Assembly: GCF_000204015.1 (NCBI RefSeq)
Contig: NZ_GL883080.1
Coordinates: forward strand, 781,291 to 815,929
Origin: Asticcacaulis biprosthecium C19
GTDB lineage: Bacteria > Pseudomonadota > Alphaproteobacteria > Caulobacterales > Caulobacteraceae
Reading direction: 5' to 3'
DNA: 34,639 nucleotides
Notes under the pieces: generated by a model
What the model was told of the DNA's origin: nothing
Database searches by the model: none
The model's input: only the letters and a program-made list of their open reading frames with translations
Part shown: positions 13,757-34,344 of the stretch, piece by piece
How positions within the stretch are numbered: position 1 is the first letter of the stretch
Layout of the letters: each line of letters begins with the position of its first letter
Made by a program: the position numbers and the translations under genes

Positions 13757-15172
13757 TCAGCTCGAAGCGCGGCACACGTGAGCAGCGGCCGTTCCGGACA
13801 AGCGCTGATGGGGAATTAAAGATACGTCGGCAAGCTCGCCGCCATCGCGCGGCAGTCGCATAATCATTTTGTTTGCCGGGTGCGGCCAGCGGCTGGCATC
13901 GATATCGAACTGATCCTGTCGGCCGTCCGTGTACGTTGCCGTAAGCCGGTATTGCCGTGCATCGGGAGACGTCAGATTGACGACAACATTGACCGGTCCC
14001 CGAATCTTGGAGCGCTGCGCCGTCGAAAGTGCCATGATAGGAATCTTGCCGTGTTTGACGGGCATGGCCTTGCCCGCAACCAGCGCCTTGTTGCCGCAAT
14101 CGCCATCTGCGGCCCCCAGTATGAGGGGGAAGGACGCAACTCCGTCGAGGTTGTGGTATTGCATTTCCCATATAAGCACCTTGGGCTTGGCAGCTTGATA
14201 ATCGGCCGACAACAGGTACGATAGGATTGAGGCTTCGAAGCCGCCGCCGCCGATAGCGTAGTTTGCCACGTCTGCCCGAAGTTCCTGCCGCAAAAATCCG
14301 CTGAAGTTGGCGGTTGGGCGGACGCTGAAGCTGGTCCCGACGAGGGCGATCTCGACATCACCGCCATCAAGAAGATTGCCTCCGGCGCCAGCGGCAGCCC
14401 TGACCGTCTCAAAAGCCCTGATCTTGTCCGCCTTGTAGGTCGAATGACAAATTCTGCTGGCTTCAAGCCGCAGCATCTGTTGCTCTTCCCGTACGGCTCC
14501 CAAAGCTGTCTTGAACTCCGTCTTTGGTATATTCCGATACTCGGGATGCCGCGCTAGTTCGCGCGCTGTCGCGTTGGCCGTCACATAAGCGCCATAGGCA
14601 GTCCAGTGAATGTCGCCAGACAGGTAGAACTGGCTGTTAGTTCCGGGCAGGCTCAGGTTGTTGTCCAAGGCCGCGGCCGTAACATCCGGCACGAAGATTC
14701 CTGTGGACCGCAGCCGGCTCAGCGTTTTTTGATAGCTTTGCATCGCTATGTCCGGCGAATACCGTTCTGTGTTTCGAGCCGCCGGATCGATAAATTCGCG
14801 CATCATCGAGCCGCGAGGTGGCGTTACCAGAACGGCGAGTCGAACATTCGACGCCTTGAGGACTTTGTTGAGATGGGCGAAATTGTTGACCAATGATCCC
14901 GCGACAGGCGGATACACGTTGAAATCGGTGTGACTGCGAAACAGCCAGTCGCCTTTGCCCCTGCGGATAAAGATATAGCTTTCATCGGAATAGTATTGCG
15001 CGTCTTCCAGTTGATTACAGATCCAGGAAGGCTGACCAGGCCCCGATATGCCTGAAGCCGCAGGCACTACGGGCGTGGCGGCGGTCACGGGCAGGGATGG
15101 AACGGCCATTAGGGCGACCAGCAGTCCAGTCTGCAGCCGGCGAGCGAAACAAGTGAGGGAGGTCTTGATCAT
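13757..15172 (-). CDS. algX: AlgX-like alginate O-acetyltransferase
   Basis: A 471-residue periplasmic protein (Pseudomonas AlgX is about 474) with a Sec signal ending near PVTA. The SGNH-type catalytic set is visible: GDIHW with Asp187 and His189, and LVGTSFS with the nucleophile Ser281. A C-terminal region of about 110 residues corresponds to the carbohydrate-binding module of AlgX. In the known system AlgX acetylates mannuronate residues and bridges the export complex. The start ATG 15172 overlaps the stop of the membrane-protein gene (ATGA), so translation is coupled. It is the last gene of the long minus-strand operon. AlgJ is a related paralogue at 22219-23349; the longer C-terminus and position support AlgX. 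Confidence 0.9.
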   Translation of the reverse strand: MIKTSLTCFARRLQTGLLVALMAVPSLPVTAATPVVPAASGISGPGQPSWICNQLEDAQYYSDESYIFIRRGKGDWLFRSHTDFNVYPPVAGSLVNNFAHLNKVLKASNVRLAVLVTPPRGSMMREFIDPAARNTERYSPDIAMQSYQKTLSRLRSTGIFVPDVTAAALDNNLSLPGTNSQFYLSGDIHWTAYGAYVTANATARELARHPEYRNIPKTEFKTALGAVREEQQMLRLEASRICHSTYKADKIRAFETVRAAAGAGGNLLDGGDVEIALVGTSFSVRPTANFSGFLRQELRADVANYAIGGGGFEASILSYLLSADYQAAKPKVLIWEMQYHNLDGVASFPLILGAADGDCGNKALVAGKAMPVKHGKIPIMALSTAQRSKIRGPVNVVVNLTSPDARQYRLTATYTDGRQDQFDIDASRWPHPANKMIMRLPRDGGELADVSLIPHQRLSGTAAAHVCRASS

Positions 15173-16446
15173 GATGCAGGTTCCAGCGGTGTGGAGGGCT
15201 TGACCACCAGAGTCGCCACGACGGACGCCAGTGTGTAGCCGAGCAGAAGGAGAGGCAGGGAAGCAAATTGCAGCGGCTGAGCCGACAGCCGGTCGAAGGC
15301 GAAAAGGCTCCACAGAACGATTCCGGCGGCGGAGCCCAGGATCAGAACACCCAGTCCTTTATGACCTTTCAGCCACAGGGCCCAGCCGCTGAACGCGACG
15401 GCGCACAGGCCGGCATAGAGAGCGATGGCGCTCCAGCCGTTATAGCGGGCCAGCAGCTTGCCAATTCTCTCACCGGACCGGGCGGCGATGGCGGCGCCGT
15501 CGTCGCCCAGCAGCAGGACGCCGTCGGTGAACCGTTCGATGACGAACGGTAACGTGGCCAGGAAACCGAAGCCACGGACATTGGCCTGGGCCAGGGCCAG
15601 GATGATGACCACCGTGGCTGCCGCGCCGAGATAAGCGGCAGCGCATGTCAGCAGAAGGCCGGGGCGCGTGTTCTGAACCGCCAGCCCAAACAGCAGCGAC
15701 AGCAGGACGGTCACACCCAGGGCCGCGCCGTAATCGAACGCGACGGCTCCGGCGCCCAGCAGGCCGCAGACGGCCAGCAGGCGCCAGGGCGACTTTTCGG
15801 AAACGAAGAAGGCCGCGGCGAGGGCGGTGGGCCACAACAGAGCGCCGATGCCCAGCGACAGGCTGGTTGCGGCGAACAGCGCGGCGATCAGGCTGGCTGC
15901 GCCCAGTACGGCCAGCTTGACCACGCTGGCGCGGCGGGTGCGCACCAGGAAGAAGGCCGTGGCGCCACCAATGGCCAGGGCCGCGACGGCCAGGGCGATC
16001 TGCCAGATCTGCAGCGGAATAAAGCCCAGAGCGAGACGCGTTACGCCGCGCAGCGCGATGGGATTGACCTTGGCTGACCGGGTGTCGGCCTGCAGGCCGG
16101 GGTCGCCATAGGCCAGGTCGCGCACCGTCTGGCAGGTGTTCAGTACCTCGTCGGGGTCCTTGGGCAACTGCGGCGCGAACATATAGCGCCCAAACGACTT
16201 TTCGACCGCCAGGATCAGGCCGGCGGTTTCACAGTCGGCGCGGACCCGCCCCAGCTTGGTGAAGGCGCGATGGGCGGCTTCGTCTGATACAAGCTGGCGG
16301 GCGGCAAAAGCGTTTTTCAGCGTGGGGGTGGGCTGGGTCAGGCGTGACACGGCCAGCAGCAGGAAGGCGGCGGCCAGGACGGCGGCGGCGGCCATCACGC
16401 CTGCCAGCAGGGCCTGGCGCCAGTTGAGGGTGGTGGTCGGGGTCAT
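15169..16446 (-). CDS. Polytopic membrane protein of the alginate operon, unassigned
   Basis: A 425-residue integral membrane protein with no counterpart in the Pseudomonas alg operon that I recognise. Seen: one N-terminal helix (about 12-34), a periplasmic-type loop of about 110 residues with two Cys, then about eight to ten hydrophobic helices to residue 415. The layout recalls polysaccharide polymerases/ligases or GT-C-like proteins, but no family motif was found. Its start overlaps the Sel1 gene stop and its stop overlaps the algX start (both ATGA), so it is translated as part of the alginate system. A role in anchoring, acetyl supply or polymer handling is possible; none is shown. Confidence 0.85.
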   Translation of the reverse strand: MTPTTTLNWRQALLAGVMAAAAVLAAAFLLLAVSRLTQPTPTLKNAFAARQLVSDEAAHRAFTKLGRVRADCETAGLILAVEKSFGRYMFAPQLPKDPDEVLNTCQTVRDLAYGDPGLQADTRSAKVNPIALRGVTRLALGFIPLQIWQIALAVAALAIGGATAFFLVRTRRASVVKLAVLGAASLIAALFAATSLSLGIGALLWPTALAAAFFVSEKSPWRLLAVCGLLGAGAVAFDYGAALGVTVLLSLLFGLAVQNTRPGLLLTCAAAYLGAAATVVIILALAQANVRGFGFLATLPFVIERFTDGVLLLGDDGAAIAARSGERIGKLLARYNGWSAIALYAGLCAVAFSGWALWLKGHKGLGVLILGSAAGIVLWSLFAFDRLSAQPLQFASLPLLLLGYTLASVVATLVVKPSTPLEPAS

Positions 16447-18581
16447 GATTTTGCCTTTGCGGAAGGCCCGGGCCCGGAAGCGGTTGGGCGGGCGGCGACC
16501 TGAGCGGCGGGAACCGGAGCGGGGGTGGCTTGCGGCGCAACGGGTGCGACCGGCTTGGGGGCAGCGGGTTTCGGCTTCATCTGGTTCAGAATGGCCCCGG
16601 CCGGCTTGAATTTTCCGGCCTTGGACTGCTCGAACAGTGCCAGGGCGCCGGCGCGATCTGCCGGACCGCCGCGGCCATCCAGCATATACAAGCCGTACCA
16701 GTACTGGGCCTCGGCGTCGCCGGAATCGGCGCCGCGCTTCAACCACGCGCGGGCTTCTGGCAGAGATTGCGGTACGCCGTCGCCGACCTCGTAGCTGTAG
16801 GACAGCATGATCATGGCTTCGGCGCTGCCGGCATTGGCGGCGCGCAGGAACAGTTCGGCCGCCCGTTGCGGGTTCCTGGCGACGCCATAGCCCGTGGCAT
16901 AGCTTCGGCCCATCTCGATCAGACCGGTCAGGTTACCGGCATCGGCCGCCTCTTCGAAGAAGGTAAAGGCGCGGGCGGCGTCAACGGGCACGCCAGCGCC
17001 GCTGGCATAGGCGCGGCCCAGATCGATATAGGCATCGGTCTCACCATGGCGCGACGCTTCTCGCAGCCATTTGACGGCCTGTTGCGACGCATCCGGCTGC
17101 TGCAGCGTAAAGTACAGGGCGCCGAGTTTACGCATGGCGCGGGGGCTGCCGCGTCGAACCGCCGCCTCCAGATAGCCCTTGGCGCGCAGCCGGTCCTGGG
17201 TCACCACTTCGCCGCGGGCATAGCCGTCGGCCATGATCAGCAGCAGATTGGTCGAGGTGGCGCCACTGTCCAGTGCGCTGCCGGCCCAGCGGAAGGCTTC
17301 GCCTTCATTGCGCGCGACGACGGCGTCGCCGCTGCTGTAGCGGCTGGCCAGTTCTGTCCGCGCCGCCGTGCGTCCGCCCTTGGCCGCCTGGCTCAGATAG
17401 GCGAAGGCCCGGGCGGGATCGGCGGTCAGGCCGCGCTGGCCCTTGTCATACAGGCCATACAGGACCCAGGAGGCGCCGGGATTCCCCATTTGCGCAGCAT
17501 CGGTGAGCATGGCGACGGCTTCGGCCTCGTCCTGCGGCTTGGACGGCTGGCGTTTCAGCAGCATGTCGGCCAGTTCGTATTTGGCCGAGGCCGAACCCAT
17601 GGCCGCGGCGCGGCGGAAATAGGATTCCGCCTTGACCAGGTCTGCGGGGACACCGCGTCCGGTCTTGAAATCCAGGCCCAGTTCGGTCAGGGCGCCGACC
17701 GAGGTGGCGTCCTTGGCCGCGTCCAGTGCCAGGCTGTGAGCCTTCTGCGCCGACTCCGGTGTGCCCTCCAGGCGCAGCACATCTATCTGCCGCATCCGTG
17801 CGGTGTTGCTGTTCAGCCCCGCGGCGCGGTTGTACCACTCGCTCGCCAGAGCGATGTCCTTGGCAACGCCGGCGCCCGTGCGGTAGGCATCGCCCACCCG
17901 GACCATGGCGTCGAGATCGCCGCCCTTGGCGTCATAGAGACTACTGGTGAACTGGCGGTAGCGGATATCGTCAGTGAGGGCGCGACTCTTGACCGGCAGC
18001 GACCGGCCTTCGATCATGGTGACCAGGGTCTTGGCCGCCCCGGCATTGGTTTCCGAGGCCTCTGTCAGCAGACGCAGGACCTCCATTTTGTCGGAATCCG
18101 GCCGCTGGGTCAACTGCCCGGCCAGCATCACCGCCGCCTTGCGGTTGCCACTCTGCGCCGCACTGCGCAGCGCTGTCATGGCTTCGTCGGGGGACCGCGC
18201 CAGTTCAGGATGATCCATAAGCAGTTCGGCCAGAGCCACCCGGGCGCGGTCGGCATATTTCGGCGCCGATGCGGCGCGCCGCAGCAGTTGTGCCGACTGG
18301 CCCGGCGCGGCGCCGGGTGCGGCCAGTTCCGGCGACCGCATCAGCAGTCGCGCCTGATAGTAGTCGGCCGCCCACGGATTGACCGCACGCAGGCTCTCGA
18401 TCTGCGTCCAGGCGGCTTTCGGTTTGCGCTCCTTGACGGCCTGGTCGGCCGCCAGCACGATGGCGCGCAATCTGGATTCGGGGCGCATCTGCCACATCGT
18501 CATACCGACGGCGCCGGCGCCCGCGGCCATTGTCAGGGCTATGGAAAACGCTGCCCATCCGGAAAAAGCTGATTTCGTCAT
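16443..18581 (-). CDS. Sel1-repeat (TPR-like) protein, AlgK-like
   Basis: A 712-residue protein with an N-terminal signal anchor (GWAAFSIALTMAAGAGAVGMTMW) and a long run of Sel1-like repeats (roughly residues 110-660) with the usual pattern, e.g. GRSYATGYGVARNPQRAAELF and GADSGDAEAQYWYGLYMLDG. A Pro/Ala-rich tail follows (about the last 50 residues). Pseudomonas AlgK is a Sel1-rich outer-membrane lipoprotein of about 475 residues; this one is much longer and has no lipobox, so it may be inner-membrane anchored. Sel1 scaffolds of this kind hold AlgX and AlgE together in the known export complex. ATG 18581 overlaps the AlgG stop (ATGA) and its stop overlaps the next start. Confidence 0.88.
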   Translation of the reverse strand: MTKSAFSGWAAFSIALTMAAGAGAVGMTMWQMRPESRLRAIVLAADQAVKERKPKAAWTQIESLRAVNPWAADYYQARLLMRSPELAAPGAAPGQSAQLLRRAASAPKYADRARVALAELLMDHPELARSPDEAMTALRSAAQSGNRKAAVMLAGQLTQRPDSDKMEVLRLLTEASETNAGAAKTLVTMIEGRSLPVKSRALTDDIRYRQFTSSLYDAKGGDLDAMVRVGDAYRTGAGVAKDIALASEWYNRAAGLNSNTARMRQIDVLRLEGTPESAQKAHSLALDAAKDATSVGALTELGLDFKTGRGVPADLVKAESYFRRAAAMGSASAKYELADMLLKRQPSKPQDEAEAVAMLTDAAQMGNPGASWVLYGLYDKGQRGLTADPARAFAYLSQAAKGGRTAARTELASRYSSGDAVVARNEGEAFRWAGSALDSGATSTNLLLIMADGYARGEVVTQDRLRAKGYLEAAVRRGSPRAMRKLGALYFTLQQPDASQQAVKWLREASRHGETDAYIDLGRAYASGAGVPVDAARAFTFFEEAADAGNLTGLIEMGRSYATGYGVARNPQRAAELFLRAANAGSAEAMIMLSYSYEVGDGVPQSLPEARAWLKRGADSGDAEAQYWYGLYMLDGRGGPADRAGALALFEQSKAGKFKPAGAILNQMKPKPAAPKPVAPVAPQATPAPVPAAQVAARPTASGPGPSAKAKS

Positions 18582-21500
18582 GATGCGTGGTCTTCCTCGC
18601 TGTCGAACTCGGCGCCGGCTTCCGCCGTCTCCTGATCGGGATCCAAAGTGCCGGTACAGATCATGCCGGCGCCGTTGGCAGGCGGCAGTTCCTCGACCAC
18701 ACCGCTGAGATAGCCCTGGTTCAGGAACGGACAGACCTTCGGAACATTGACGGCCCTGCAACTGGACCGGACCACAACGCCTTCCCCTTGCAGGCGCAGC
18801 ATTTCCCGGCCGTGCGGTTCCAGGTCGCCCTGCAACAGCTTTTTCGTCGAGCCGAAGAACTGGTTGCCCTTAACGGCGACCGTACCGAAACCGGTGGCAG
18901 TAATACCCGTGCCGTTGTGCTTGTCGATAACGTTGTCGACGACAGCGACGGTCACGAACTTGGTGTAGGGATCCTTCACGGCGTCGCGGGTCGGGAATCC
19001 GATGACCTCTTTCGGGTCGCCGACATAGATGTTCACCCCGGCGCGCTGGGCCGTGATCAGGTGGTTGCGGAAGATGCCGATATCGGTGCTGTTGCGGACC
19101 TTGACCGCGTCGCCGTGGTTCTCGAACGTCCGGTTACCGGCCAGGATGTTGCACGGGCTTTCGTACACGGCCAGGCCGTCCTGGCCATTGCCCCAGACGC
19201 GGTTGGCATAGACCAGGTTTCCGGAAGAAATACGATCCAGCATGATGCCGGTGCCGTGATTGTCGAAGACGATATTGCCGACAATCCATGAGTCATCGAC
19301 TTCACGCGATCCGATAATGCCGTGCTTCTTCACGGTGCCGTAGCTGACATTGTACGCGATGATCAGGCGCTTGGAATAGTCGTGCGGGTCGACGCCGTAG
19401 ATCAGGTTGTTGCGGTATTCGTTGCCGATCAGGGCGATGTCGTCGGCGGCATTGGTGAAGAAGCCGAAATACATCTCCTCGAAACTGTTGTCGACAACCA
19501 TGCCGGTGGGGCGGTTGAGCGCGCCGGGGCGGTGCTGCTGCACCAGGATCGGACCCTGTGAATATGAGAAGCCGTAACCCTTGGCGCCGTTGAAGCCCAG
19601 GTGATGGAAGTGCGACCCGTCGGCGTGCATCTGCGAGCCGCCCCAGGAAATCAGGAACGGGCGGAACTGGTTGCGGCTGTCGAAATCGAGCTTGGGATAG
19701 GCCTTGCCGGCGGCGTCCCAGCCAGCGACCGTGATGTCGTGCAACCACAGTTTTCCGGCATTGACGATGAAGACGCCGGTGTTGGAATTCAGCCGCAGTT
19801 CCTCGGCATCGGTGCCGGAGATGACCAGGCTGGCCTGGGGGCCGACGAGCAACGGCACATTCAACATGTAGCGCGAACCCTTGCGGATCAGCAGTTCGCC
19901 TTCGCCGATGCTATTGAGGTGGCGCGCCAGACTTTCCAAGGTCAGGACGCCGGACTCGATGTGGATGTAGCGCGGATAGCGGGTGCCTTGCGCCTGGACC
20001 GGGAAGACCTTTTCCCCGATCTGGCGGAAGGTGTTGTTCACTTGGGATACGAACTTGGTGTTGTAGTAGCTGTATTCCATTGGGATGACATACACACCCC
20101 CGTCCGTTGCAACCGGGATGTTGTCGCTGACGGCCTGGCGGCTGTAGCTGTTGAGGTTTGGCGGTGTCGGGATCGACTCGCCCACCTTGTTATTGCCTAT
20201 ATTGTAATAGGTCGCGGCCTGGCCCTTCAGGATCACCTGGCGTTCGCGGGCAGTATTGTCCGGACGGGTCACGCCGCCGTCCAGGACACCGTAAATATCC
20301 AGCGCCTCGGCGCTGGCCGCGGCCAACTGGCGCATCGAGCGGACGCGGTCCTGGTAGTCGGGAATCTGGCGGGCATAGAGGGCGGCGACCTCGTATTCGT
20401 GCTTGTCCGAGAAGACGCGGACGACACGTTGCAGCATGTCCGAGGCCTGGTGTTCGTCCAGCGCCCAGGCCACGGCCTGGTCAATGCGGCCGGTATCCTT
20501 GACCTTGGCCCAGGCGGCAGCCAATTCGGTCAGGGCGTTGAGATAATGGACATTGTCGTCGGCCATGGCGTCCAGCAGGTAAGCCTCGGCTTTGACAGGT
20601 TGCCCCGTCGACGCCAGGGCGAAGACCGCCGCCGACGCGGTCTGCTGCACTTCCTCGACCGACGACGCCTTGGCGCGCAGGGCTTCGATCTGGGCGACGA
20701 TGGCCAAGGCTTTGGCAGGCTCGATCCGTTTGGCGTAGGCGTCGGCGGCATAGGCCAGGACCCAAGCCTTGGTTCCGGGCGACGTCTGGCTCTTGGCCAG
20801 GCTGGCGATGGCGTCGGGCTGTTCCTTTGCCGCGAGCAGGACGGCCCTCAGAAGGGCGGCCTGCTCGCGCTGCCCCGCGCTTTTGATACCGTTGATGGCC
20901 TTCTCTGCGGTCGCCCAATCGCGGCTGCTCGTCGCCCGCCGCGCCAGCTCCTGAAGGGTTTTCGTCTTGTGGTCAGGCTCCCCGATGCGGTTGGCGTACA
21001 TCAGGGCGCGCGGGTAGTCGCCGGAATAGATGTCGACCAGGGCCAGGTTGGCATTGATCCGCGACTTGGCGGCGCGCGGCATGAAGAACGAGGTGATTTT
21101 CACGGTCTCAAGAGTTTGCGCCGTGGCAGCCTGAGTAACGTGGGACTTGGCATAGGCGGCGGCCACCTGCGACAGGACTTGCGCCTTGAGCGTGGTATCG
21201 GTCAAGCTCTGAGTCAGGCGTTCAGCGATCGACAGGCGCGGGCTGTCGGTGTTGCCCATGGCCAGGAAGAACAGGGCCTCGTTCTGTTGCGCAATGGAAG
21301 AGATACCGAAGGCGGCGATCTCGACGACATCGCGCTGTTCGTTGGTCGTGGCTTCCTGAACCAGGGTCAGGAGCAGGTTGTCGCGATCGGGCGTGCCGAC
21401 CCGGGCGGCCAGAGCGGCGGCCAGGGCGGCTTCAGTGTTGCCGTTGACTCTCAGCGTTTCGGCGGCATCCAGCAACTCCGGGCTGCGGCGGTCCAGTTCT

Positions 21501-23349: not shown

Positions 23350-23358
23350 GGTCGCGCC

Positions 23359-24812: not shown

Positions 24813-25478
24813 CTAGTTGGCGGTTTCAGAACGGACCCAGACAACCTTGATCTTGCCACCGACCTCGGAGACGATCGACGAATAGGCGTTGCCGCGTTCG
24901 ATGGTCTGTTGCGGGACGGTCCCCAATTGCGACGTGCCGTCGAACACCGCAAAGCCGGTGGTAGCCGAGTTGACCGGACGCGAGCCAACCTTGCGCGGTG
25001 CGACGGCGTCAACAACCGCAGCCGCACCGTCGGCCGTCTTTAGCGACAGGGCGGCCCGGTCGGTCAGGTTGTAGAAGGTGATCAACCCCTTGACCTTGCT
25101 GTCCAGCTTGGGGTCTTCGATGAGCGCGGCGTGGGGTGCCGACCGTGTGCCGAAAATGACGACGGTATAGTAACCGCCGTCGCTGACGACGAGTGTCTTG
25201 CCCTTGGTTCCGAAGCGCACCTGGGTCGTTCCGGCCGGAATGATCTTGTAAGCCGTGGCTGTGCCCGCGGCGACGCTGTAGCTGGCCTTGCCGATGGTGG
25301 CATTGACCGTCTGGCCATCCTCGACCGTCGAAACGACGCGGATGAACACCGAGTTCGGTGGCGGTGCCGCGGCATAGAGGCCGGCATCGGCATTCTTGGC
25401 GTTGGCGGAAAGCGGCAGCAAGGCGGCCGCGCCGATCAGCGCGGTCATCAGGGTTCTTCTGGTCGTGGCCATAGTCAT
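24813..25478 (-). CDS. algF: AlgF-like alginate O-acetylation adaptor
   Basis: A 221-residue periplasmic protein (Pseudomonas AlgF is about 216) with a Sec signal ending at SANA. The mature start DAGLYAAAPPPNSVFIRVV corresponds to the AlgF N-terminal strand, and the body is two all-beta modules (conserved FYNLTDRAALSLKTADG and PVNSATTGFAVFDGTSQLG). AlgF is required for O-acetylation with AlgI and AlgJ and has no known catalytic site. ATG 25478 is chosen because GGAG lies six bases upstream; the ATG at 25490 would overlap that site. Gap to algI is 44 bp and to the algL upstream 35 bp. Confidence 0.88.
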   Translation of the reverse strand: MTMATTRRTLMTALIGAAALLPLSANAKNADAGLYAAAPPPNSVFIRVVSTVEDGQTVNATIGKASYSVAAGTATAYKIIPAGTTQVRFGTKGKTLVVSDGGYYTVVIFGTRSAPHAALIEDPKLDSKVKGLITFYNLTDRAALSLKTADGAAAVVDAVAPRKVGSRPVNSATTGFAVFDGTSQLGTVPQQTIERGNAYSSIVSEVGGKIKVVWVRSETAN

Positions 25479-25513
25479 GTCTGTCTCCATTACGTCTTGA
25501 GCGAATCGGGGGT

Positions 25514-26638
25514 CTAAGGCCTGGCCCGTCCTCGGGGTATGTTTGCCGGCGCTGTACCCGGGCGGGCGAACAAAAGGGTGATATCCCCGCCCAGATTGGT
25601 GCTGCGCATGGGCCGCATTTTGGGCAATCTTGCGCTCCAGGCGCTGCGGCCGGGAAAGCGGGACTCGTAGATTTCGAGCCATGCAACGTCGCCGGAGTCG
25701 TAGAATTCGCCGTTGGGCAGGGCCTCCTGGGCCGTACCAGCGAGTTGGGTGATCCGAGTCGGATCGTCCAACTGGGTCAGGCAAAAATCGATCAATCGGT
25801 GAAGGGCGCCGCTATTCTCGTCGTAAAGGCTTGAATCGCCATTCCTGGCAGCGGCCTCCGCGATCAGGACCAGGGGCGCCAGGGCGTAGGCATGATAGCT
25901 GAGGGCGCGTTGCCCGCGCGCCAGTTCCAGCGGCAAAGCGCCTTCCGCGGTTACCTCGGCAATGCCGATGCGGGCCGAACTCACGCCCCAGTCGAACAAG
26001 TCTCGGCGATTGGCGACGATCCCGGCCGACAGGACGCTTAGGCCCGCCCAGTAACGGTGGTTGTTGGCCGCGCTTTTGGTTTTCAGGGCTGCGTAATGCC
26101 GATAAGTTTCGCCGGCGCGGTCTTCGAGCCAGTTGGCGATGATCGTGCGAAGGGTAGGCTTAAGCGCTCCCTCGATCTGCATCAATCCCAGTGAGGCCGC
26201 CCCAAGGGTCAAGAGGCGGCTGAACTGCGCCGTTTCGCCACTGACCACCTTCAGGCTGTCGGCCCCGGCCCACGTCGCCAGAATGCCGCCGGCCTCGGCC
26301 GCGGCCTTCAGGTTCTTGCCATCGGAGGCAACATAACGATTGGCGGCTCGGATGACGGACTGCGAGAACGCACGCAAGGGCGCCACCGAGCGTTCATAGG
26401 CTTCGGACAACTCCGGATCGACAGTCGAGCGCGACGGGTCGTCCTTCCTGTACCGCGACTCGTTGGCCAGCTCGCGGACAGGTTCCGTCTTGGGCAGGTG
26501 TTTTGCTTTTGGCGCCACGCCGCTGGCGCGCGGCACAGCGAACGGCGGTCGCAGGCGCCGGGTGGCGGCCTGCGCCGGAAGGGTCAGCAGGCATGCGCCC
26601 GCGCTCGCTGCCAACACATCGCGCCGTGAGATAAACAT
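25514..26638 (-). CDS. algL: PL5 alginate lyase AlgL
   Basis: A 374-residue periplasmic enzyme. The N-terminus SRRDVLAASAGACLLTLPAQA is a Tat-like leader cut near AQA. The catalytic PL5 block NNHRYW is at 192-197, and LPLELARGQRALSYHAYALAPL carries the second set (Arg and Tyr). AlgL clears polymer that escapes into the periplasm and trims chains during export in the known systems. ATG 26638 is preceded by an almost perfect AAAGGAGGT ribosome-binding site, the strongest seen in the operon; the longer frame upstream is ignored. Placement between the exporter and acetylation genes fits an in-operon housekeeping lyase. Confidence 0.93.
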   Translation of the reverse strand: MFISRRDVLAASAGACLLTLPAQAATRRLRPPFAVPRASGVAPKAKHLPKTEPVRELANESRYRKDDPSRSTVDPELSEAYERSVAPLRAFSQSVIRAANRYVASDGKNLKAAAEAGGILATWAGADSLKVVSGETAQFSRLLTLGAASLGLMQIEGALKPTLRTIIANWLEDRAGETYRHYAALKTKSAANNHRYWAGLSVLSAGIVANRRDLFDWGVSSARIGIAEVTAEGALPLELARGQRALSYHAYALAPLVLIAEAAARNGDSSLYDENSGALHRLIDFCLTQLDDPTRITQLAGTAQEALPNGEFYDSGDVAWLEIYESRFPGRSAWSARLPKMRPMRSTNLGGDITLLFARPGTAPANIPRGRARP

Positions 26639-26660
26639 GCTGACCTCCTTTCCGATGCGG

Positions 26661-28820
26661 TCAGAACCGGCGTGAAACGGAGACGCGAACCTGATTGTCG
26701 CGGCGGTTAAAGTTGACCTTGTTGTCGTCGATATCGAGCCAGGCATAGGTCACGCGCACCTGGGTGGTTTGCTTATAGGTTGCGACTGGACCGACTTCGA
26801 AGCGGGTGCGGACGATTTTGCGGTGCTCGTCGGCGCCGGACGCAGATGTACTGATGGCGTCGTAGCGTCCTGTCCGCAGCGAAACAGCAACATCGCCGTC
26901 GACTTGCCATGACCCGCGGGTCAGCATCGGCCAGACATAGCCGGCCGAAACCGTCACCGCCGACTGGCGCAAGGTTATGTCGGACGGCTGATCGTGGAAC
27001 AGCTCGATCCCGCCGGCCAGGCCATATTCCCCCGTTGCAGGGGCGACCTCTAACGATACAGAGTGCCGCCAGCCATCACGGCCGGGACGGCGGTCGTCCA
27101 TCTTCAGGCCTTCGTAGCGGCCGGTCACCCGGCGGCCCATCGCCAACTGGCTGTAGCTGGTATAGAAACCCAGCCCCTGGTTCAGCAGCTTGCCGCCGCG
27201 GTGGCTGCGGTCATACAGCAGGCCGCCTTCGACCTTGGCCGCGAGGGAGGGCAGATAGATGACGGCGCCGAGATTGAAATCGATCTTGACTCTGTCGATC
27301 GGGTCCAGTTCCCATTGGTCAGTGACCGTGGCGCGTCCGGCCGCGGTCAGATAGTTGTAGCTGCTGCCAAGACGGTGGCGGTATTCACCACCGGCGGTCA
27401 CGACCGTTGCTGCGTCGCTGTAGCTCTGTTGCGGATCGTAAGGCGCAGTACCTTCTTCGCCGGGGATCGCGGCGACCAGGGCCGGGGCATTGTCGTCGTA
27501 TTGCAGCCCGCCGCCCAGGCTACCGGTAAAGGCCCGAGCCGGAGTCTCCGCGGCAAAAGTGTCGGATGCGGTAACCGCGCTGGCCGCCAGGGACGGGGTG
27601 GCAGGTGCCGCCGCAACCGCATCGATCTGCGCCTTGGCGCCGGCGAAGTCATAGCCCCGCCGCAGCAGCGTTGCCTTACGCAACTTCGCGCGTTGGTGCC
27701 ATTCCGGAGCAAATTGCGGGCTGGCGATGATGCCGTCATAGATGACCATCGCCTTTTGCGGGTGGTTGACGGCCGACTCGTCGTCGGCTTGAGCCAGCAG
27801 GTCCGACGCCTTGGCATCCATTTCGCGGACATCGATGCGCTTGGCGATCTCGTCACGGCGCGTCGCCAGGTCGGCATCGCCGGCATTGATGTGAACCGCA
27901 CTCAGAACGGTGCGGGCCTCGTCGAAACGGCCCAGGCGCGACAGGTGATCCGACAGCCTGAGCTGCCCACCGCTGAGCACCGGCGCCGAGGCGGTCGGAT
28001 AGGTGGCCAGGGCGAGCTTTTCCGCTTCCACCGCGCCCGCGACATCGCCGCTTTCGGCCTTGGAGGCGGCAGCGTCCAGCGCCGTGCGCGCGGTAAAATC
28101 GAGGCGCTTCTGCACGACGCTGCCGTCCAGTTCGCCGGCGGCCGAAGCGATATTGGCGTCGCTGCGGTCCACGGCGGCCAACCTGCGCTCGGCTTCATCG
28201 AAATCGTTTTGCTTTGTGCTGATCGAAGCCAGACGAAGTTGCACCCGGTCGATGTAGCCTTCGGGTAGTGGGCACGGCTGGCTCAGCAGGGCCTCGAACT
28301 GCGTTTCCGACTCGGTCAGATTGCCGGACTTGAGCAGGGCCTCGGCCTGGTCGAAGCGGTTGCGGGCCGCGGCGATTCCCTGGCGATAGTCGATGTCGGT
28401 CAGCATAGCGGTCGCCTGGGCCTTGACCTTGGCGTCACGCGAGGCGCTGGCCTGAGTGGCCAGGGCGCGTGCGTCATCGAAGCGGCCTTGCTGGATGCGG
28501 ACGCGCGCCAGGCGGATCGTGGCGCGCCGCGCCGTGTCGTTCTTGTCCCGCGGCGTCTTCATCAGCTTCAGCAACAGCGTCTCGGCCTCGTCGAACTGGC
28601 CCGCATCATAGGCGCGGTCTGCGGCATGCAGCCGCCGTGCCGACGGCGACATCTTGGCCAGGTTCGGCGTCTTGGTCGTCGCCTTTGCCGCCGGTGCCGT
28701 CTGGGGGCGTGCCGGGCAGGTTTCGACAGCGGCGGCATGACCTGCACCTGTCGCGACGATGAGGCTGGCGGCCGTCACCAGGCCGGCCCGCAGAACGTGG
28801 TTGGCCCGTAGATTTTTCAT
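26661..28820 (-). CDS. TPR/beta-barrel outer-membrane exporter
   Basis: A 719-residue protein. Sec signal ends near GHA; residues about 60-420 are TPR-like helical repeats (DRAYDAGQFDEAETLLLKLM, LARVRIQQGRFDDARALA, HLSRLGRFDEARTVL); residues about 430-719 are an amphipathic beta-barrel of about 290 residues ending VRVSVSRRF with the terminal Phe of outer-membrane proteins. This TPR-barrel layout is that of PgaA or BcsC rather than the 18-stranded AlgE plus separate AlgK. The barrel also resembles DUF560/Slam-type proteins by eye. The position after alg44 is where algK-algE lie in Pseudomonas, so alginate export is inferred. ATG 28820 shares a base with the alg44 stop (TGATG); a GTG one codon upstream is the alternative start. 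Confidence 0.88.
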   Translation of the reverse strand: MKNLRANHVLRAGLVTAASLIVATGAGHAAAVETCPARPQTAPAAKATTKTPNLAKMSPSARRLHAADRAYDAGQFDEAETLLLKLMKTPRDKNDTARRATIRLARVRIQQGRFDDARALATQASASRDAKVKAQATAMLTDIDYRQGIAAARNRFDQAEALLKSGNLTESETQFEALLSQPCPLPEGYIDRVQLRLASISTKQNDFDEAERRLAAVDRSDANIASAAGELDGSVVQKRLDFTARTALDAAASKAESGDVAGAVEAEKLALATYPTASAPVLSGGQLRLSDHLSRLGRFDEARTVLSAVHINAGDADLATRRDEIAKRIDVREMDAKASDLLAQADDESAVNHPQKAMVIYDGIIASPQFAPEWHQRAKLRKATLLRRGYDFAGAKAQIDAVAAAPATPSLAASAVTASDTFAAETPARAFTGSLGGGLQYDDNAPALVAAIPGEEGTAPYDPQQSYSDAATVVTAGGEYRHRLGSSYNYLTAAGRATVTDQWELDPIDRVKIDFNLGAVIYLPSLAAKVEGGLLYDRSHRGGKLLNQGLGFYTSYSQLAMGRRVTGRYEGLKMDDRRPGRDGWRHSVSLEVAPATGEYGLAGGIELFHDQPSDITLRQSAVTVSAGYVWPMLTRGSWQVDGDVAVSLRTGRYDAISTSASGADEHRKIVRTRFEVGPVATYKQTTQVRVTYAWLDIDDNKVNFNRRDNQVRVSVSRRF

Positions 28821-29911
28821 CACTTTTTGTCCTGGTTAAGCAGGCGCAGGGTGCTGACGCGGACCGAGGCAGGCTGCCCCACCATGGAGGCGGGCAGCTT
28901 GCGGTCGAAGTTCACACGCACCACGGCCGAGAGTTGGATCACGCCCTGCGAGACGCGGGCATAGGCGTTGGTCTCGCCGAACGTGGGCAGGACAACGCGC
29001 TCGACGCGGCCATTGTAGTAGCGATCGCCGACGTAGATATCAGCCACGACATGGTCGCCCGGGCGGATGCGGCGGGCGGCTTCCAGCGGCACAATGAACT
29101 CGCCGCCGATGCGGCCCGAGGTCGGGACGATCTGCGCGATCGGGGCGCCGCGGGCGATGAAGGCGCCGGGCGCGGCCAAGATCTCACCCATGATGCAGTC
29201 GCAGTTGCTGGCGATATTGACCACCGATGTGTCGATGGCTTCCAGACTGCTCAGGTTCTGGTTGGGCAGGACGCGCTCGCCCGGCTTGGCGTCGACCGAG
29301 AGGACCGTGCCGGCCTTGGGGGCGCGCAGCATCTGGGCGTCCGGACTGGCCAGCACGCCGTCGGCGCGAACCACGAAGCCGCGGGCAAAGGCGCTGTAGC
29401 CGATATAGCCGACCAAACCCAGGCCGATCGACCACAGGATGGCTAGCAGGACCAGGCGCTGCACCGTTGGCATGATGCTCTTTTTCTGCCCGGCGTCTTC
29501 CTTTGCTTGAAGGCGGGCACCCGTGAAGTTCTCGCGCTTGATGATGGCCAGGACGTCCCCTGAGGTCACCATCTCACCCGACAACTGAGCGCCGATCAGG
29601 TATTGCAGCAGAGACAGTGAGTTGGGCGCCACATCGACAAAGGCGAAACCGGCAAATTTGGTTTCGGGATTGGCTTGTTTCACCTCGCCCTTGACCGCCA
29701 GTTCAAAGGCGAAACCCTCGAACTTGAAGATCAGGGTCAGGGGGACGATTTGGCCTACTGCGGGTACGATAGCGAACGGTCCCGCACCCAGGCCGGCTAC
29801 CGACCAATCGGTCGCCTCGTAGGTGTCGTCCCCGATCGTCACCGTGATGGGAACGCGCAGTCTCACGTGCTGGCGTTGGGACGAGGCCTCATGAACAATT
29901 TTCAGCGACAT
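28820..29911 (-). CDS. alg44: Alg44: PilZ c-di-GMP receptor / membrane-fusion subunit
   Basis: A 363-residue protein (Pseudomonas Alg44 is about 389). The N-terminal PilZ domain (about 10-115) keeps both c-di-GMP motifs: RxxxR as R13-QHV-R17 and D/NxSxxG as D35-WSVAG-40. A single membrane helix lies at about 149-175, followed by a periplasmic HlyD-like barrel-sandwich domain (ASPDAQMLRAPKAGTVLSV, then GGEFIVPLE and IRPGDHVV). In the known system this binds c-di-GMP and activates Alg8. Start ATG 29911 has GAGG upstream; it lies 9 nt after alg8. Control of polymer synthesis by c-di-GMP is therefore expected. Confidence 0.95.
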   Translation of the reverse strand: MSLKIVHEASSQRQHVRLRVPITVTIGDDTYEATDWSVAGLGAGPFAIVPAVGQIVPLTLIFKFEGFAFELAVKGEVKQANPETKFAGFAFVDVAPNSLSLLQYLIGAQLSGEMVTSGDVLAIIKRENFTGARLQAKEDAGQKKSIMPTVQRLVLLAILWSIGLGLVGYIGYSAFARGFVVRADGVLASPDAQMLRAPKAGTVLSVDAKPGERVLPNQNLSSLEAIDTSVVNIASNCDCIMGEILAAPGAFIARGAPIAQIVPTSGRIGGEFIVPLEAARRIRPGDHVVADIYVGDRYYNGRVERVVLPTFGETNAYARVSQGVIQLSAVVRVNFDRKLPASMVGQPASVRVSTLRLLNQDKK

Positions 29912-29920
29912 TCATAATCC

Positions 29921-31408
29921 TCACAACAAAGGCAAAAAGGAGAAGGGCTTAAACACGCCCAGATAGGTCCCGACACAGGCCAGGAAAAACAGGATGGCGA
30001 CGGCATGCATCGACCAGGAGGTCATGTTGATGACCTGTTTCGAGAAGCCGCCCAGGTTGCGGGCGACGGTCGTGTTCTGGCGGGTCCATTTCTGGCGGTC
30101 GAGCCGGAAGAAGATGTAGGTTTTGACCATCGAACCGTAGACCTGGTTGAAGAACAGCAGGAAGGGGAAGGTCCAGGCGACGTCCTTGCGGGCGGTCAGC
30201 AGGGCCAGGGTCTGGATGAACCGGGTCACTGCGATCCAGTAGGCATAGACAACCAGCGACATAGGCCCGTAATAGAGAGTCAGTAGGATTGCAGCGGTCG
30301 GGCCGACCGTGGCCGTCCACATGCTGACCCGCTGGTCCAGGACCGTCCACCAGACGAAGAGACCGATTTTGCGAGGCCCAAGCGCCAGAGCCCGGCTGTT
30401 GTTGCGCAGCATGTTACCGAACCAGCGCACCATCAGCATGGTTGAGGCTCTGACGAAATCGTTGTCGGGCGGCGACTCCACGGTGTTGACCGTGACGTCC
30501 GGGATGTACGCCATTTTGCCGCCGTGACGCAGGATCCAGTACCAGGTGCTCTTGTCGTCGCCGGTCAGGAAGGCGAAGCGGCCAAGACGCCAGTGGTCGA
30601 TGGTGTCGGACTCGAGTTGCTTGATGAAGCCCGGATCGGTGGCGACCTCGACGCGGAAGGCCGACATCCGGCCGGTCAGGGTCAGGACCCGCTTCGACAG
30701 GCCCATCGAACACATGAGGATCTGGCGCTGGGCGAAGCGCATATTGTACCAATCGTGGAACACCCGCGCACCGCGGACTTCGCACACCTCGTCGGTCGTG
30801 AAGGCGCTGATATCGGGCATGACCTTGAAGAAGGGCAGGCTGCGCTGCAGGCAATAGGGTTCAAGAACCGTATCGCCATCGACGACGACCACCACGGCGC
30901 CCGGCGGTGGCAACATCATCTGAATGGTACGTAAGCCTTGTGCCAATGCGTCGCGCTTGCCGGTGCCACCGATGCGGATAAACGACAGCGTAACGTGTGG
31001 CGGCGGGTCCATCGCGATGAACAACTGCTTGACCAGACGCTGGTCGGCCATCTCCACGAGAGATGCGACCAGGGTGACCGGTATCTTGGTCCGCGCCGCC
31101 TCTTCGATGGCGGCACGGTAAACATCGGTGCTGGTTTCGGTATCGATGCGGAAGCTGGTCAGCAGCAGGTAGGCATGGGTCGGCATACCGTCCACGCCCA
31201 TCGCATCCGCCTGGCGGCGAAGGCGCGGGAATACGATGTGACGATAGATCAGGGAGCGCACCAGATGAGTGGCCGCCCAGATATAACGCCACGAAGCGAT
31301 CAGCCCGATCGCCAGGAGGAAATGTGCCGATTGCTGGTTGAACAGTTCCTGCGGCATAGCCAAACTGATGGCCAGCAGCAGAACTGCGTACCCGAGAAGG
31401 CCCGTCAT
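29921..31408 (-). CDS. alg8: Alg8: alginate polymerase (GT2)
   Basis: A 495-residue membrane glycosyltransferase matching Pseudomonas Alg8 in length (494). N-terminal helices cover about 1-60; the cytosolic GT2 domain has VVVDGDT with Asp177/Asp179 (DxD) and FLTGDDKST with the acceptor-side Asp284-285. The MVRWFGNMLRNNSR segment corresponds to the QxxRW region. C-terminal helices follow from about residue 350. It polymerises mannuronate from GDP-mannuronic acid and passes the chain through the inner membrane with Alg44. The AGGAG site is 11 nt upstream of ATG 31408, slightly long. Cellulose-synthase-like alternatives are disfavoured by the algD/alg44 neighbours. Confidence 0.95.
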   Translation of the reverse strand: MTGLLGYAVLLLAISLAMPQELFNQQSAHFLLAIGLIASWRYIWAATHLVRSLIYRHIVFPRLRRQADAMGVDGMPTHAYLLLTSFRIDTETSTDVYRAAIEEAARTKIPVTLVASLVEMADQRLVKQLFIAMDPPPHVTLSFIRIGGTGKRDALAQGLRTIQMMLPPPGAVVVVVDGDTVLEPYCLQRSLPFFKVMPDISAFTTDEVCEVRGARVFHDWYNMRFAQRQILMCSMGLSKRVLTLTGRMSAFRVEVATDPGFIKQLESDTIDHWRLGRFAFLTGDDKSTWYWILRHGGKMAYIPDVTVNTVESPPDNDFVRASTMLMVRWFGNMLRNNSRALALGPRKIGLFVWWTVLDQRVSMWTATVGPTAAILLTLYYGPMSLVVYAYWIAVTRFIQTLALLTARKDVAWTFPFLLFFNQVYGSMVKTYIFFRLDRQKWTRQNTTVARNLGGFSKQVINMTSWSMHAVAILFFLACVGTYLGVFKPFSFLPLL

Positions 31409-31428
31409 GTGTGTGTGCGCTCCTGCGA

Positions 31429-31465
31429 GATCATTTCCCGATCATTTTGATCCGTGGAAATGATC
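31429..31465. other. Nested palindrome, alg8 leader
   Basis: GATCATTTCC and GGAAATGATC are perfect 10-bp arms, 17 nt apart, with an inner GATCA-TTT-TGATC palindrome. It lies just upstream of the alg8 ribosome-binding site. There is no T tract, so it is not a classic terminator; an RNA stem or protein site is possible. Confidence 0.5.
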
Positions 31466-31481
31466 AGAGATTTGCTTGCCG

Positions 31482-31518
31482 CACTTCCCAAAACATGGCG
31501 TCCACGTTTTGGAAAGTG
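31482..31518 (-). other. Intercistronic hairpin between algD and alg8
   Basis: CACTTCCCAAAAC and GTTTTGGAAAGTG form a 12-pair stem with one mismatch around an 11-nt loop, 16 bp after the algD stop. No run of T follows on the minus strand. It could stabilise the algD end or separate algD from alg8 expression. Confidence 0.55.
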
Positions 31519-31533
31519 CTTACTGAGCCGTAT

Positions 31534-32868
31534 TTACCAGCACAGGCCCGCGTAATCCTGGTTGTTGCTGCGGACTTCTTTGGACACACGGACAAAGTCG
31601 ATGACCAGTTGGTCGTCGCGCTTGTCGCCTACGGCTTCGCCAAAGCGAAAGTCGTTGTTGCCGACAACCAGAACGTCGGCATCTTCCTTGGCTTCTTCGA
31701 TCGAGGCGACCAGCAGGTCGGCCAGGTGCGGCAGGTGGGCGCGGACATAGCTCAGATTGGCGCCGGTGAGGGCCGAGTAACGGACGTTCTCGTCGTAGAT
31801 CTTGACCTTGAAGCCCTTGCCATGAAGGCGCTCGGCGATTTCCACCAGCGGCGATTCACGCAGGTCGTCGGTGCCGGCCTTGAAGCTGAGGCCCAGCATG
31901 GCAACATTCTTCTTGCCAGTGGCGGCGATCATGTTGAAGGCGCGATCGATCTGGTTGTCGTTGGAGTCGGCGACGGCGTCCAGAAGCGGGGTCGCAACCT
32001 CCATCGAGCGGGCGCTGTAACGCAGGGCGCGCAGATCCTTGGGCAGGCATGAACCGCCATAGGCCATGCCGGGTTTCATGTAGACCGTCGAAATGTTGAG
32101 ACGCTTGTCGGCGCAGACGGCTTCCATCACCTTGTGGCCATCGATGCCGGCGGCCTTGGCGATGTTGCCGATTTCGTTGGCGAACGAAATTTTCACGGCG
32201 TGCCAGGTGTTGTTGGCATACTTGATCGCCTCGGCGGTCTTGATGTCGACCAGGAATTCCGGCGACGTCAGTTTCGAATTGATTACGCGCAGGCGGCTCA
32301 GGGTTTCGTCATCCTTGATCCCCAGCACGATGACGGCGGGGTTTTCATAGTCGGCGATCGCCGTCGCTTCGCGCAGGAACTCGGGATAGTAGGCGATGCC
32401 GAAATCGACGCCGGCCTTCTTGCCGCTGGCGCGTTCCAGAATCGGGATCACGGTCTTGTCCATGGAGCCCGGCAGCATGGTCGAGCGCATGACCACCGAG
32501 TGGTACCCTGCCTTCTGGCCAATGGCCTTGCCGATGTCTTCTGCGACCGCGGCGACATAGGACAGATCAAGGTTGCCGTTGCGCAGGCTGGGCGTGCCAA
32601 CGCAGACGATGCTAAGATCAGTATTGTCGATGGCGTAAACGGCGCTGGTGCCGGCGGTCAGCAGACCGTCGTCGACTGCGCCCTTCAAAAGCTCCGGCAG
32701 GCCGGGCTCGACGATCGGGGAGATGCCCTTGCCGAGGGAGTCGGCCTTCGCCTGGTTTACGTCGACCGCATGAACGGAAAAACCATCCTTGCAGATACAG
32801 GCGGCGGTAACAGCACCGACATACCCGATACCAAAAATGCTGACGCGCGGCTTGGATACTGAAGTCAT
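31534..32868 (-). CDS. algD: GDP-mannose 6-dehydrogenase AlgD
   Basis: A 444-residue cytosolic enzyme (Pseudomonas AlgD 436) that oxidises GDP-mannose to GDP-mannuronic acid with NAD+, the committed step of alginate synthesis. N-terminal Rossmann motif GIGYVGAVTAA; SGKKAGVDFGIAYYPEFLREA in mid-protein; catalytic Cys274 in GGSCLPKDLRAL; GLSFKAGTDDLRESPLVE; and the C-terminal GLCW, which matches the AlgD GICW end rather than UDP-glucose dehydrogenases. ATG 32868 is preceded by GGGG; a TTG two codons upstream is rejected because it would overlap that site. First gene of the long operon and divergent from the guanylyltransferase gene. Confidence 0.97.
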   Translation of the reverse strand: MTSVSKPRVSIFGIGYVGAVTAACICKDGFSVHAVDVNQAKADSLGKGISPIVEPGLPELLKGAVDDGLLTAGTSAVYAIDNTDLSIVCVGTPSLRNGNLDLSYVAAVAEDIGKAIGQKAGYHSVVMRSTMLPGSMDKTVIPILERASGKKAGVDFGIAYYPEFLREATAIADYENPAVIVLGIKDDETLSRLRVINSKLTSPEFLVDIKTAEAIKYANNTWHAVKISFANEIGNIAKAAGIDGHKVMEAVCADKRLNISTVYMKPGMAYGGSCLPKDLRALRYSARSMEVATPLLDAVADSNDNQIDRAFNMIAATGKKNVAMLGLSFKAGTDDLRESPLVEIAERLHGKGFKVKIYDENVRYSALTGANLSYVRAHLPHLADLLVASIEEAKEDADVLVVGNNDFRFGEAVGDKRDDQLVIDFVRVSKEVRSNNQDYAGLCW

Positions 32869-33267
32869 AGTCAAATCCCCGAAAAACTCAAAAAATCCGT
32901 AAACACAAACTTAACTCACATTTATGTCACATTTATTTCGCATCGCAGCATATATCTTGCTGCGTCGCGGTGCGTTCATTTCACTTTGTTGAATTAATCA
33001 GACATGTAGCGTTATTTACCGTGGTGCGATGTTGATTTTATACGTTTATTTTCAGAAACTTCCCATTTTGGCGAGTTGTGTCGCAGAAAGTTCGTCTTTT
33101 TTACATATTAAGCGAGCGCAAAAAATAGTGTTGCGCAGTGCGGCATGATTTTGGTTAATGGTGACGCGCGATCACACGTGCTTCCAAGGCTAAAACCGAA
33201 GATTGCATATCGTTGTAGAGTTTTTTTGACAGAGGGGCGCGCGCCGCCCAGACAGGAACTTACGAAA
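32869..33267. promoter_or_regulatory. Divergent algD/algA promoter region
   Basis: This 399-bp, conspicuously AT-rich gap separates the two divergent transcription units and must hold both promoters. Seen in it: a 10-bp direct repeat at 32916-32936 and a GAACTT-N16-CCAAAA sequence on the minus strand (33093-33066), loosely like an ECF/AlgU-type promoter. No gene is visible. Confidence 0.7.
32916..32936. repeat. 11-bp-spaced direct repeat upstream of algD
   Basis: TCACATTTAT occurs twice, separated by one G, giving a period of 11 bp (about one helical turn), 48 bp upstream of the algD start. The phasing fits two recognition sites on one DNA face for a regulator. It could also be chance in AT-rich DNA. 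Confidence 0.6.
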
Positions 33268-34344
33268 ATGCCGACTCAGATCTTACCGGTCATCATGTCC
33301 GGCGGTTCCGGTACCCGGTTGTGGCCTCTGTCGACGCCGACGGCACCGAAACAATTCCACGCCCTGGCGACGGCCAATACCATGATCCAGGAGACGGTCC
33401 TGCGACTCACCGGCGACGGCTTCCTGGCGCCGGTGGCGATCTGCGGCCGCAGTCATTTCGACCTGGTAACCGCGCAACTGGAGGCGATCGAGCAAGCGCC
33501 TCAGGAAGTGATACTGGAACCCTTCGGACGCAACACTGCGGCTGTGGCGGCCATGGCGGCTCTGAGCGGCCTGGCCCTGGCGCCCGACGCCCTGATCCTT
33601 ATGGTGCCGGCCGATCACGTGATCGCCCAGCCGGCAGCGTTCCATGACGCCGTTCTGGCCGCCGGTGAGACGGCCAGAACGCGCATCGTCACGTTCGGCA
33701 TCCAGCCCAGCCATGCCGAGACCGGATTTGGCTATATAGAACGCGGCGCCGAACTGTCGCCGGGCCACTACGAGATCGCGCGCTTCCTAGAAAAGCCGGA
33801 TTTGGCCACGGCAACTCAATATGTCGCTGGCGGCGCCCATGTTTGGAACGCTGGTATCTTCCTGTTCGCGCCGCAGGTCATGCTGGAGGAACTGGAGCTT
33901 CATGCGCCGGCCGTCCTCGCGGCGTGCCGCACGGCCTATGCCGCCGCACGGCGTCGTGGCGTGGCCGTCGAACTTGACGACGGCTTGTTCGGCCAAGTGC
34001 CTTCGATCTCGATCGACTATGCGGTCATGGAGCATACGACGCGCTCGGCGGTCGTGCCCTGCGATATCGGCTGGGCGGACGTTGGCGGCTTCCGCGAACT
34101 GTGGCGCCTGGCTGACAAGGATCCGCATGGCAATCATGTGAAGGGCGATGCCATCCTGATCGACGCTCAGAACTGCCTGATCCGCAATGACGGCGGTCCC
34201 ATCGTCGCGGTGATCGACATGGCCGATATCATGGTGGTTTCGACACCGTCCGGCATCCTGATTTCTCCCCTGTCACGCGCCCAGGACGTCAAAAAAGCCG
34301 CTGAGGCCGCCAAGTCCTTCCTGGCGGCGGCGGCGGCGCCCTGA
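33268..34344 (+). CDS. manC: Mannose-1-phosphate guanylyltransferase
   Basis: A 358-residue cytosolic nucleotidyltransferase making GDP-mannose from GTP and mannose-1-phosphate, feeding AlgD. Seen: PVIMSGGSGTRLWPLS at the N-terminus (pyrophosphorylase signature), ILEPFGRNTAAV near residue 90, VPADHVI near 115, FLEKPD near 175 and WNAGIFLF near 195. It stops well short of bifunctional AlgA (about 480 residues), and the C-terminal isomerase cupin with its His metal ligands is absent, so phosphomannose isomerase must come from elsewhere. ATG 33268 follows AGGAA by 9 nt; the frame is open from 33145 but the upstream part has no enzyme motif. It could be called algA, but manC is the safer symbol. 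Confidence 0.93.
   Translation: MPTQILPVIMSGGSGTRLWPLSTPTAPKQFHALATANTMIQETVLRLTGDGFLAPVAICGRSHFDLVTAQLEAIEQAPQEVILEPFGRNTAAVAAMAALSGLALAPDALILMVPADHVIAQPAAFHDAVLAAGETARTRIVTFGIQPSHAETGFGYIERGAELSPGHYEIARFLEKPDLATATQYVAGGAHVWNAGIFLFAPQVMLEELELHAPAVLAACRTAYAAARRRGVAVELDDGLFGQVPSISIDYAVMEHTTRSAVVPCDIGWADVGGFRELWRLADKDPHGNHVKGDAILIDAQNCLIRNDGGPIVAVIDMADIMVVSTPSGILISPLSRAQDVKKAAEAAKSFLAAAAAP

Follow-up and report, generated by a model that had tools for sequence, protein, structure and literature searches.

An alginate-type gene cluster of Asticcacaulis with an epimerase fused to a solenoid

Introduction

What does a full-looking set of alginate genes make in a bacterium outside the classical producers, and with what kind of machine? 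Alginate is a polymer familiar from seaweed and from the slime of Pseudomonas. The question is raised by positions 13757-34344 of a 34,639-nucleotide stretch of Asticcacaulis biprosthecium C19 DNA, here called the window (G000:C5:781291-815929 in a 5.41-Mb assembly of 6 contigs), in which an earlier note, made from the sequence, had named a near-complete alginate cluster of an apparent alphaproteobacterium. The region very probably encodes an alginate machine of Asticcacaulis that responds to cyclic diguanylate (c-di-GMP), with the epimerase AlgG joined in one chain to an alpha-solenoid. All genes named earlier are present, and the alginate-type assignment is supported gene by gene through family matches of AlgD, Alg8, Alg44, AlgL, AlgG and AlgX. 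The AlgG-fused solenoid, the sel1 gene, a membrane protein of no assigned role (MP) and two lyases at 10420-13750 are additions to that earlier list.

A passage of one paper describes putative alginate clusters outside Pseudomonas and Azotobacter in many genomes, alginate itself having been isolated from some members of these two genera (PMC4444821), and a passage of another counts 64 alginate operons in 1733 genomes, including atypical ones that lack algKE, the loci for outer-membrane transport, or genes for modification (PMC7112194). Because such clusters are published, and because we found further loci in Rhizobium, Marinobacter and elsewhere, the taxon alone is not the novelty that the earlier note suggested, although its statement that the gene order differs and that several parts are rebuilt stands. 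Among the papers listed by searches of the open-licence literature, a scope outside which most subscription journals lie, none appeared to treat the solenoid-AlgG fusion or an alginate operon of Asticcacaulis.

Results

Core genes of an alginate-type system

A broad alginate-type, synthase-dependent exopolysaccharide system comprises a GDP-mannose dehydrogenase of the AlgD type, an Alg8 synthase with its Alg44 PilZ partner, the acetylation set AlgI, AlgJ, AlgF and AlgX, a PL5 lyase within the operon, and an AlgG epimerase with the DPHD motif; the cluster encodes all of them (Table 1). The best solved match of AlgD is GDP-mannose 6-dehydrogenase (1MFZ, 1MUU and 1MV8) with 460.6 bits, followed by UDP-glucose dehydrogenase with 221.1. 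Alg8 keeps a DDK motif besides its DGD, and Alg44 carries the RQHVR and DWSVAG motifs. AlgI is the genome's only protein to match MBOAT at E 0.001, and AlgJ and AlgX both match PF16822. The catalytic residues listed in the earlier note could be located in AlgI (His321), AlgG (DPHD, 945-948), AlgJ (DTHW 199, GTS 300), AlgX (DIHW 187, GTS 279) and Alg8 (DGD, 177-179); the AlgD cysteine, given as Cys274, is instead residue 276 in the GGSC motif when counted from the TTG start at 32874, a number that depends on the start codon. ManC consists of the guanylyltransferase part alone, which TIGR01479 matches over positions 1-344 of 467. The bifunctional AlgA of Pseudomonas and Azotobacter, isomerase and guanylyltransferase together, is thus not found, and PF01050 has no match genome-wide.

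Within the acetylation set algX stands apart. Its GC content at third codon positions is 0.66, lower than in the other operon genes, and its synonymous divergence from the congeneric genome Asticcacaulis sp. AC460 is nearly saturated (proportion of synonymous differences 0.73, against 0.28-0.50 for the other 11 genes), hinting that algX was replaced or changes faster. The other congeneric genome with the cluster, Asticcacaulis sp. AC402, holds two tandem algX copies (L073, 17006-20031) of 62% mutual identity.

An epimerase fused to a solenoid

A five-sequence profile of AlgG matches the solved epimerase 4NK6 at E 1.5e-100, and the protein shows the AlgG fold and keeps both DPHD and the arginine of SREV. 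AlphaFold, run on 26 sequences, predicts an alpha-solenoid at residues 44-641 followed by a beta-helix epimerase (predicted local distance difference test, pLDDT, 84.3; predicted template-modelling score 0.83). The start bears a lipobox-like LAGC; a simple lipobox pattern flags six of 26 AlgG rows, including the window and AC460 and leaving AC402, whose start is uncertain, unflagged. Foldseek with the solenoid half gave general repeat proteins of low TM-score among the matches listed. The VIA match list was filled by the beta-helix half, so that the absence of AlgK from it is uninformative for the solenoid.

How widespread is the fusion? The loci compared are the best 80 of at least 542 relatives, and neighbourhoods were compared in 41 of the 82 loci L070-L151 and in 8 further loci. 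A solenoid profile matched the AlgG frame itself in 32 of 90 AlgG frames, or 29 distinct loci after removal of three duplicates, all from Alphaproteobacteria as judged by title or kinship; the test is circular for the 26 sequences that built the profile, though not for L052, L070, L089, L097 or the loci free of the fusion. The other 57 loci, Pseudomonas, Azotobacter and Marinobacter among them, gave no AlgG-frame match. Eight of these are alphaproteobacterial (L064, L071, L092, L097, L099, L102, L110 and L150); contig ends truncate L092 and L099, and L097 encodes the solenoid in a frame of its own immediately ahead of AlgG. Judged by this profile, the fusion is confined in our sample to Alphaproteobacteria, where it is not universal. 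A count of AlgG N-terminal lengths from stop to stop (41 Pseudomonas/Azotobacter loci, 7 of them above 300 residues) was discarded in favour of the profile, as it used frames that had not been trimmed to their start codons. On the 46-row AlgG tree the long and short states need six changes, or four without the two cut rows and with L097 taken as short, which implies either repeated gain or loss of the fusion or misplaced rows. A separate peculiarity of AlgG is seen in L100 (2729-5810), a Salinisphaerales metagenome-assembled genome with two tandem algG genes.

Exporter, Sel1 protein and membrane protein

The exporter has TPR families alone above the Pfam cut-off. AlphaFold models its TPR part (53-425) with confidence, whereas residues 427-719 have pLDDT below 50; the partly predicted strands there and the terminal Phe suggest a probable C-terminal outer-membrane beta-barrel, so that the exporter seems to combine TPR solenoid and pore in one chain. 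A search of PDB sequences gave no match at E up to 1, and Foldseek with the model returned general TPR proteins among the best 50 rows. The locus holds no separate AlgE porin (PF13372) of the Pseudomonas/Azotobacter kind; a single weak PF13372 match lies far away on another contig (G000:C2:1650125-1650691, L154; 33.8 bits, above the 25.2 cut-off).

A separate AlgK lipoprotein, another such trait, is also not found at the locus. The Sel1 protein begins with what looks by eye like a membrane anchor without a lipobox, and it is AlgK-like solely in its repeats. Long Sel1-repeat proteins (about 430-1000 amino acids) recur beside solenoid-AlgG in L052 and in the Rhizobium loci L075-L078, L080 and L098, and are possibly a marker of the alphaproteobacterial system.

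MP, which overlaps sel1 and algX by 4 bp each, matches nothing in Pfam or the PDB at E 5, and its ratio of nonsynonymous to synonymous substitution rates (dN/dS) against AC460 is 0.25. Across 385 genomes of the class, a profile of MP recovered only the Asticcacaulis genome itself and a single further match, of 15.9 bits and interrupted by a stop; G491, which carries L052, was not among the matches. L052 has a similarly laid-out membrane protein in the same place after Sel1, weakly matching MP (hhalign E 6e-4, probability 28%, 104 columns). Our best guess is that MP is a structural part of the trans-periplasmic complex.

Distribution and trees

The assembly gave no 16S match (RF00177), so that placement in the genus rests on relatives and protein trees. 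AC460 and AC402 carry the same cluster with gene order kept, and the three loci group together in the trees of AlgG (99/100) and of Alg8 (100/100, stem 0.59), in agreement with the alphaproteobacterial origin proposed earlier. Alg8 (E up to 1e-40) occurs in 3 of 25 genomes of the genus and, in the wider samples, in 7/398 for the order, 23/385 for the class and 24/398 for the phylum; the wider counts are likely upper bounds for alginate, since they include Alg8-like synthases without detected algD.

Both trees omit the duplicates L046, L047, L051 and L061, and the Alg8 tree also L053, L064 and rows below 500 bits or 350 residues; of the 41 Pseudomonas/Azotobacter loci, eight are in the Alg8 tree and none in that of AlgG. 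Pseudomonas and Azotobacter form their own Alg8 clade (100/99), and the Alg8 tree does not place the contig within Pseudomonadales, the outcome that the earlier note had named as contrary to its reading. Nor does the Asticcacaulis Alg8 group with the gamma clade, as the Pseudomonas/Azotobacter type would: a joint clade with 13 gamma and Desulfobulbus rows was rejected by the approximately unbiased test (p-AU 0.0245), a modest result for a group chosen after the first tree. Among the 45 Alg8 rows, 18 from Rhizobiales split at 100/99 from the other 27 (Asticcacaulis, other alphaproteobacterial and gamma rows), which leaves Asticcacaulis on the gamma-row side of the unrooted tree, away from Rhizobium. 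In the AlgG tree the trio lies apart from the gamma rows (100/100). The deep branching order is not settled by these trees.

Locus layout

Twelve genes run on the minus strand from 32874 to 13757 in the order algD-alg8-alg44-exporter-algL-algF-algI-algJ-algG-sel1-MP-algX. Their gaps do not exceed 44 bp, except for one of 125 bp that separates algD from alg8, and 4-bp overlaps occur at algJ-algG, algG-sel1 and both junctions of MP; we therefore read them as a single operon. The gap between algD and the divergent manC showed no clear excess over shuffles in a promoter and terminator scan, and composition gave no signal of a genomic island, GC being 0.63 across the cluster and 0.62 on its left side. 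In L067 a frame with a masked run, at 17738-19108 to the immediate right of manC, resembles EF-Tu when read by eye.

Beyond algX, whose stop is 6 bp from that of the convergent second PL5 lyase, both extra lyases also adjoin the operon in AC460 and AC402. A TonB-dependent receptor frame near them (window 7367-9562) may possibly serve the uptake of alginate fragments.

Table 1. Features of the cluster and its flank, in window positions; starts were refined for manC, exporter, algL, algF, sel1, MP and algX. aa, amino acids.
Feature	Position	Strand	Evidence
algD, GDP-mannose 6-dehydrogenase, 446 aa	31534..32874	-	1MFZ/1MV8 match; 50% to A. vinelandii, GGSC kept
alg8, GT2 mannuronan synthase, 495 aa	29921..31408	-	Glyco_tranf_2_3; 46% identity to A. 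vinelandii over 476 positions
alg44, PilZ c-di-GMP receptor + HlyD-like co-polymerase, 363 aa	28820..29911	-	PilZ: 4XRN (residues 10-113, E 6.1e-8), 4RT1, 4RT0; HlyD_3
exporter, TPR solenoid (53-425) + probable C-terminal outer-membrane beta-barrel, 719 aa	26661..28820	-	TPR families, AlphaFold
algL, PL5 alginate lyase, 374 aa	25514..26638	-	PF05426; 4OZV E 1.1e-34
algF, alginate O-acetylation factor, 219 aa	24813..25472	-	PF11182 96.5 bits, cut-off 34.4
algI, MBOAT acetyl-transfer protein, His321, 469 aa	23359..24768	-	PF03062 118.4 bits, cut-off 27; 55% to A. vinelandii
algJ, SGNH-like acetyltransferase, 376 aa	22219..23349	-	PF16822 254.2 bits; 40% to A. vinelandii AlgJ
algG fused to N-terminal alpha-solenoid, probable lipoprotein, 1214 aa	18578..22222	-	
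sel1, Sel1-repeat protein, N-terminal hydrophobic anchor, AlgK-like repeats, 712 aa	16443..18581	-	PF08238 163.7 bits
MP, polytopic membrane protein of no known family, 425 aa, 9 hydrophobic segments	15169..16446	-	no Pfam/PDB match
algX, alginate acetyltransferase, 471 aa	13757..15172	-	7ULA E 5.5e-50, 4KNC; DIHW, GTS
manC, mannose-1-phosphate guanylyltransferase without isomerase domain, 358 aa	33268..34344	+	TIGR01479 partial
second PL5 alginate lyase, 380 aa, convergent with algX	12608..13750	+	PF05426 138.4 bits
PL7 alginate lyase with RTX repeats, 691 aa	10420..12495	+	PF08787 + HemolysinCabind

Discussion

The gene set suggests how such a machine may work. ManC and AlgD would supply GDP-mannuronate, which Alg8, controlled through the PilZ domain of Alg44, would polymerise while moving the chain across the inner membrane. 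In the periplasm AlgI, AlgJ, AlgF and AlgX would acetylate the chain, the AlgG half of the fusion would epimerise part of it to guluronate, and AlgL would remove stray chains. A trans-periplasmic scaffold that holds the path of the chain, as AlgK does in Pseudomonas, may be built from the Sel1 protein, the AlgG solenoid and the exporter's TPR half; by this analogy we infer that the AlgK role has passed to the AlgG solenoid. The C-terminal part of the exporter would be the outer-membrane pore, the role of AlgE in Pseudomonas, and the RTX-bearing PL7 lyase, acting outside, and the second PL5 lyase may trim or release the polymer.

Several results weigh against an alginate machine of this kind. 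A type I or II mannose-6-phosphate isomerase was not found in the genome, as was also the case in the control, Caulobacter vibrioides. Curated NCBIfam cut-offs are missed by AlgG (276 of 700 bits), AlgL (224.7 of 366), ManC (366.5 of 372.95) and the Sel1 protein scored as AlgK (NF038194; 58 of 700), and AlgD, alone among the named genes in passing one, does so for a general NDP-sugar dehydrogenase model. The barrel half of the exporter is modelled without confidence and has no AlgE family match in Pfam, and MP is unexplained.

Could the operon then make some other acetylated polyuronate related to alginate, such as one with a second sugar, by means of GDP-mannuronate and a drifted Alg8? We regard this as improbable. 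In its favour, Asticcacaulis Alg8 and AlgG sit on long separate branches, the operon includes MP, and several alphaproteobacterial Alg8 relatives lie in stretches without detected algD, so that Alg8-type synthases may serve other polymers. Yet AlgD is of the GDP-mannose type, AlgG keeps its fold, DPHD and SREV arginine, two PL5 lyases and a PL7 lyase lie within or beside the operon, and family matches of the Pfam kind recognised no further glycosyltransferase in it. Still far less credible is a silent or non-functional remnant in the three Asticcacaulis genomes; the rarity of Alg8 in the genus would fit it, but all frames of the cluster are open, AC460 and AC402 preserve the gene order, and dN/dS against AC460 is low (0.05-0.30) across all 12 genes.

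An alginate machine being the preferred reading, how does it compare with known systems? With the operons of Azotobacter vinelandii (L103) and Pseudomonas it shares homologues of algD, alg8, alg44, algG, algX, algL, algI, algJ and algF, but it differs in gene order, the AlgG-solenoid fusion, the lack of a separate AlgK or AlgE at family level, the one-chain TPR exporter, the additional Sel1 and membrane proteins, and a divergent ManC without isomerase domain. The Rhizobium clusters named above share algD-alg8-alg44-solenoid-AlgG-algL-Sel1, the fusion included; they have three Sel1 genes, and algI, algJ, algF, algX and a relative of the Asticcacaulis exporter were not detected in the flanks examined. 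In L052, from the same class, two other frames follow alg8-alg44 and are followed in turn by solenoid-AlgG, Sel1 and a polytopic membrane protein in this order, but extra glycosyltransferase and Sel1 genes are also present. A TPR solenoid followed in one chain by a barrel, only probable in Asticcacaulis, recalls PgaA, BcsC and PelB, from which the exporter differs in accompanying an alginate-type synthase and in matching no PDB chain by sequence. A passage of PMC9384988 contrasts fused TPR-porin exporters with the separate AlgK and has AlgK interact with AlgX, AlgE and Alg44.

We speculate that the Alphaproteobacteria possess alginate machines of a second architectural class. Their epimerase would be covalently built into the export scaffold and would receive each chain threaded along the solenoid; Asticcacaulis would add a one-chain exporter and the previously undescribed MP. 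This wider proposal is plausible, though somewhat short of probable.

A full-looking set with a scaffold-fused epimerase offers a testable case for the coupling of epimerisation, acetylation and export, and may be a new source of alginate-modifying enzymes. A passage of PMC7716237 places Asticcacaulis among the rhizosphere colonisers for which exopolysaccharide production matters; for this genus the cluster proposes a matrix polymer.

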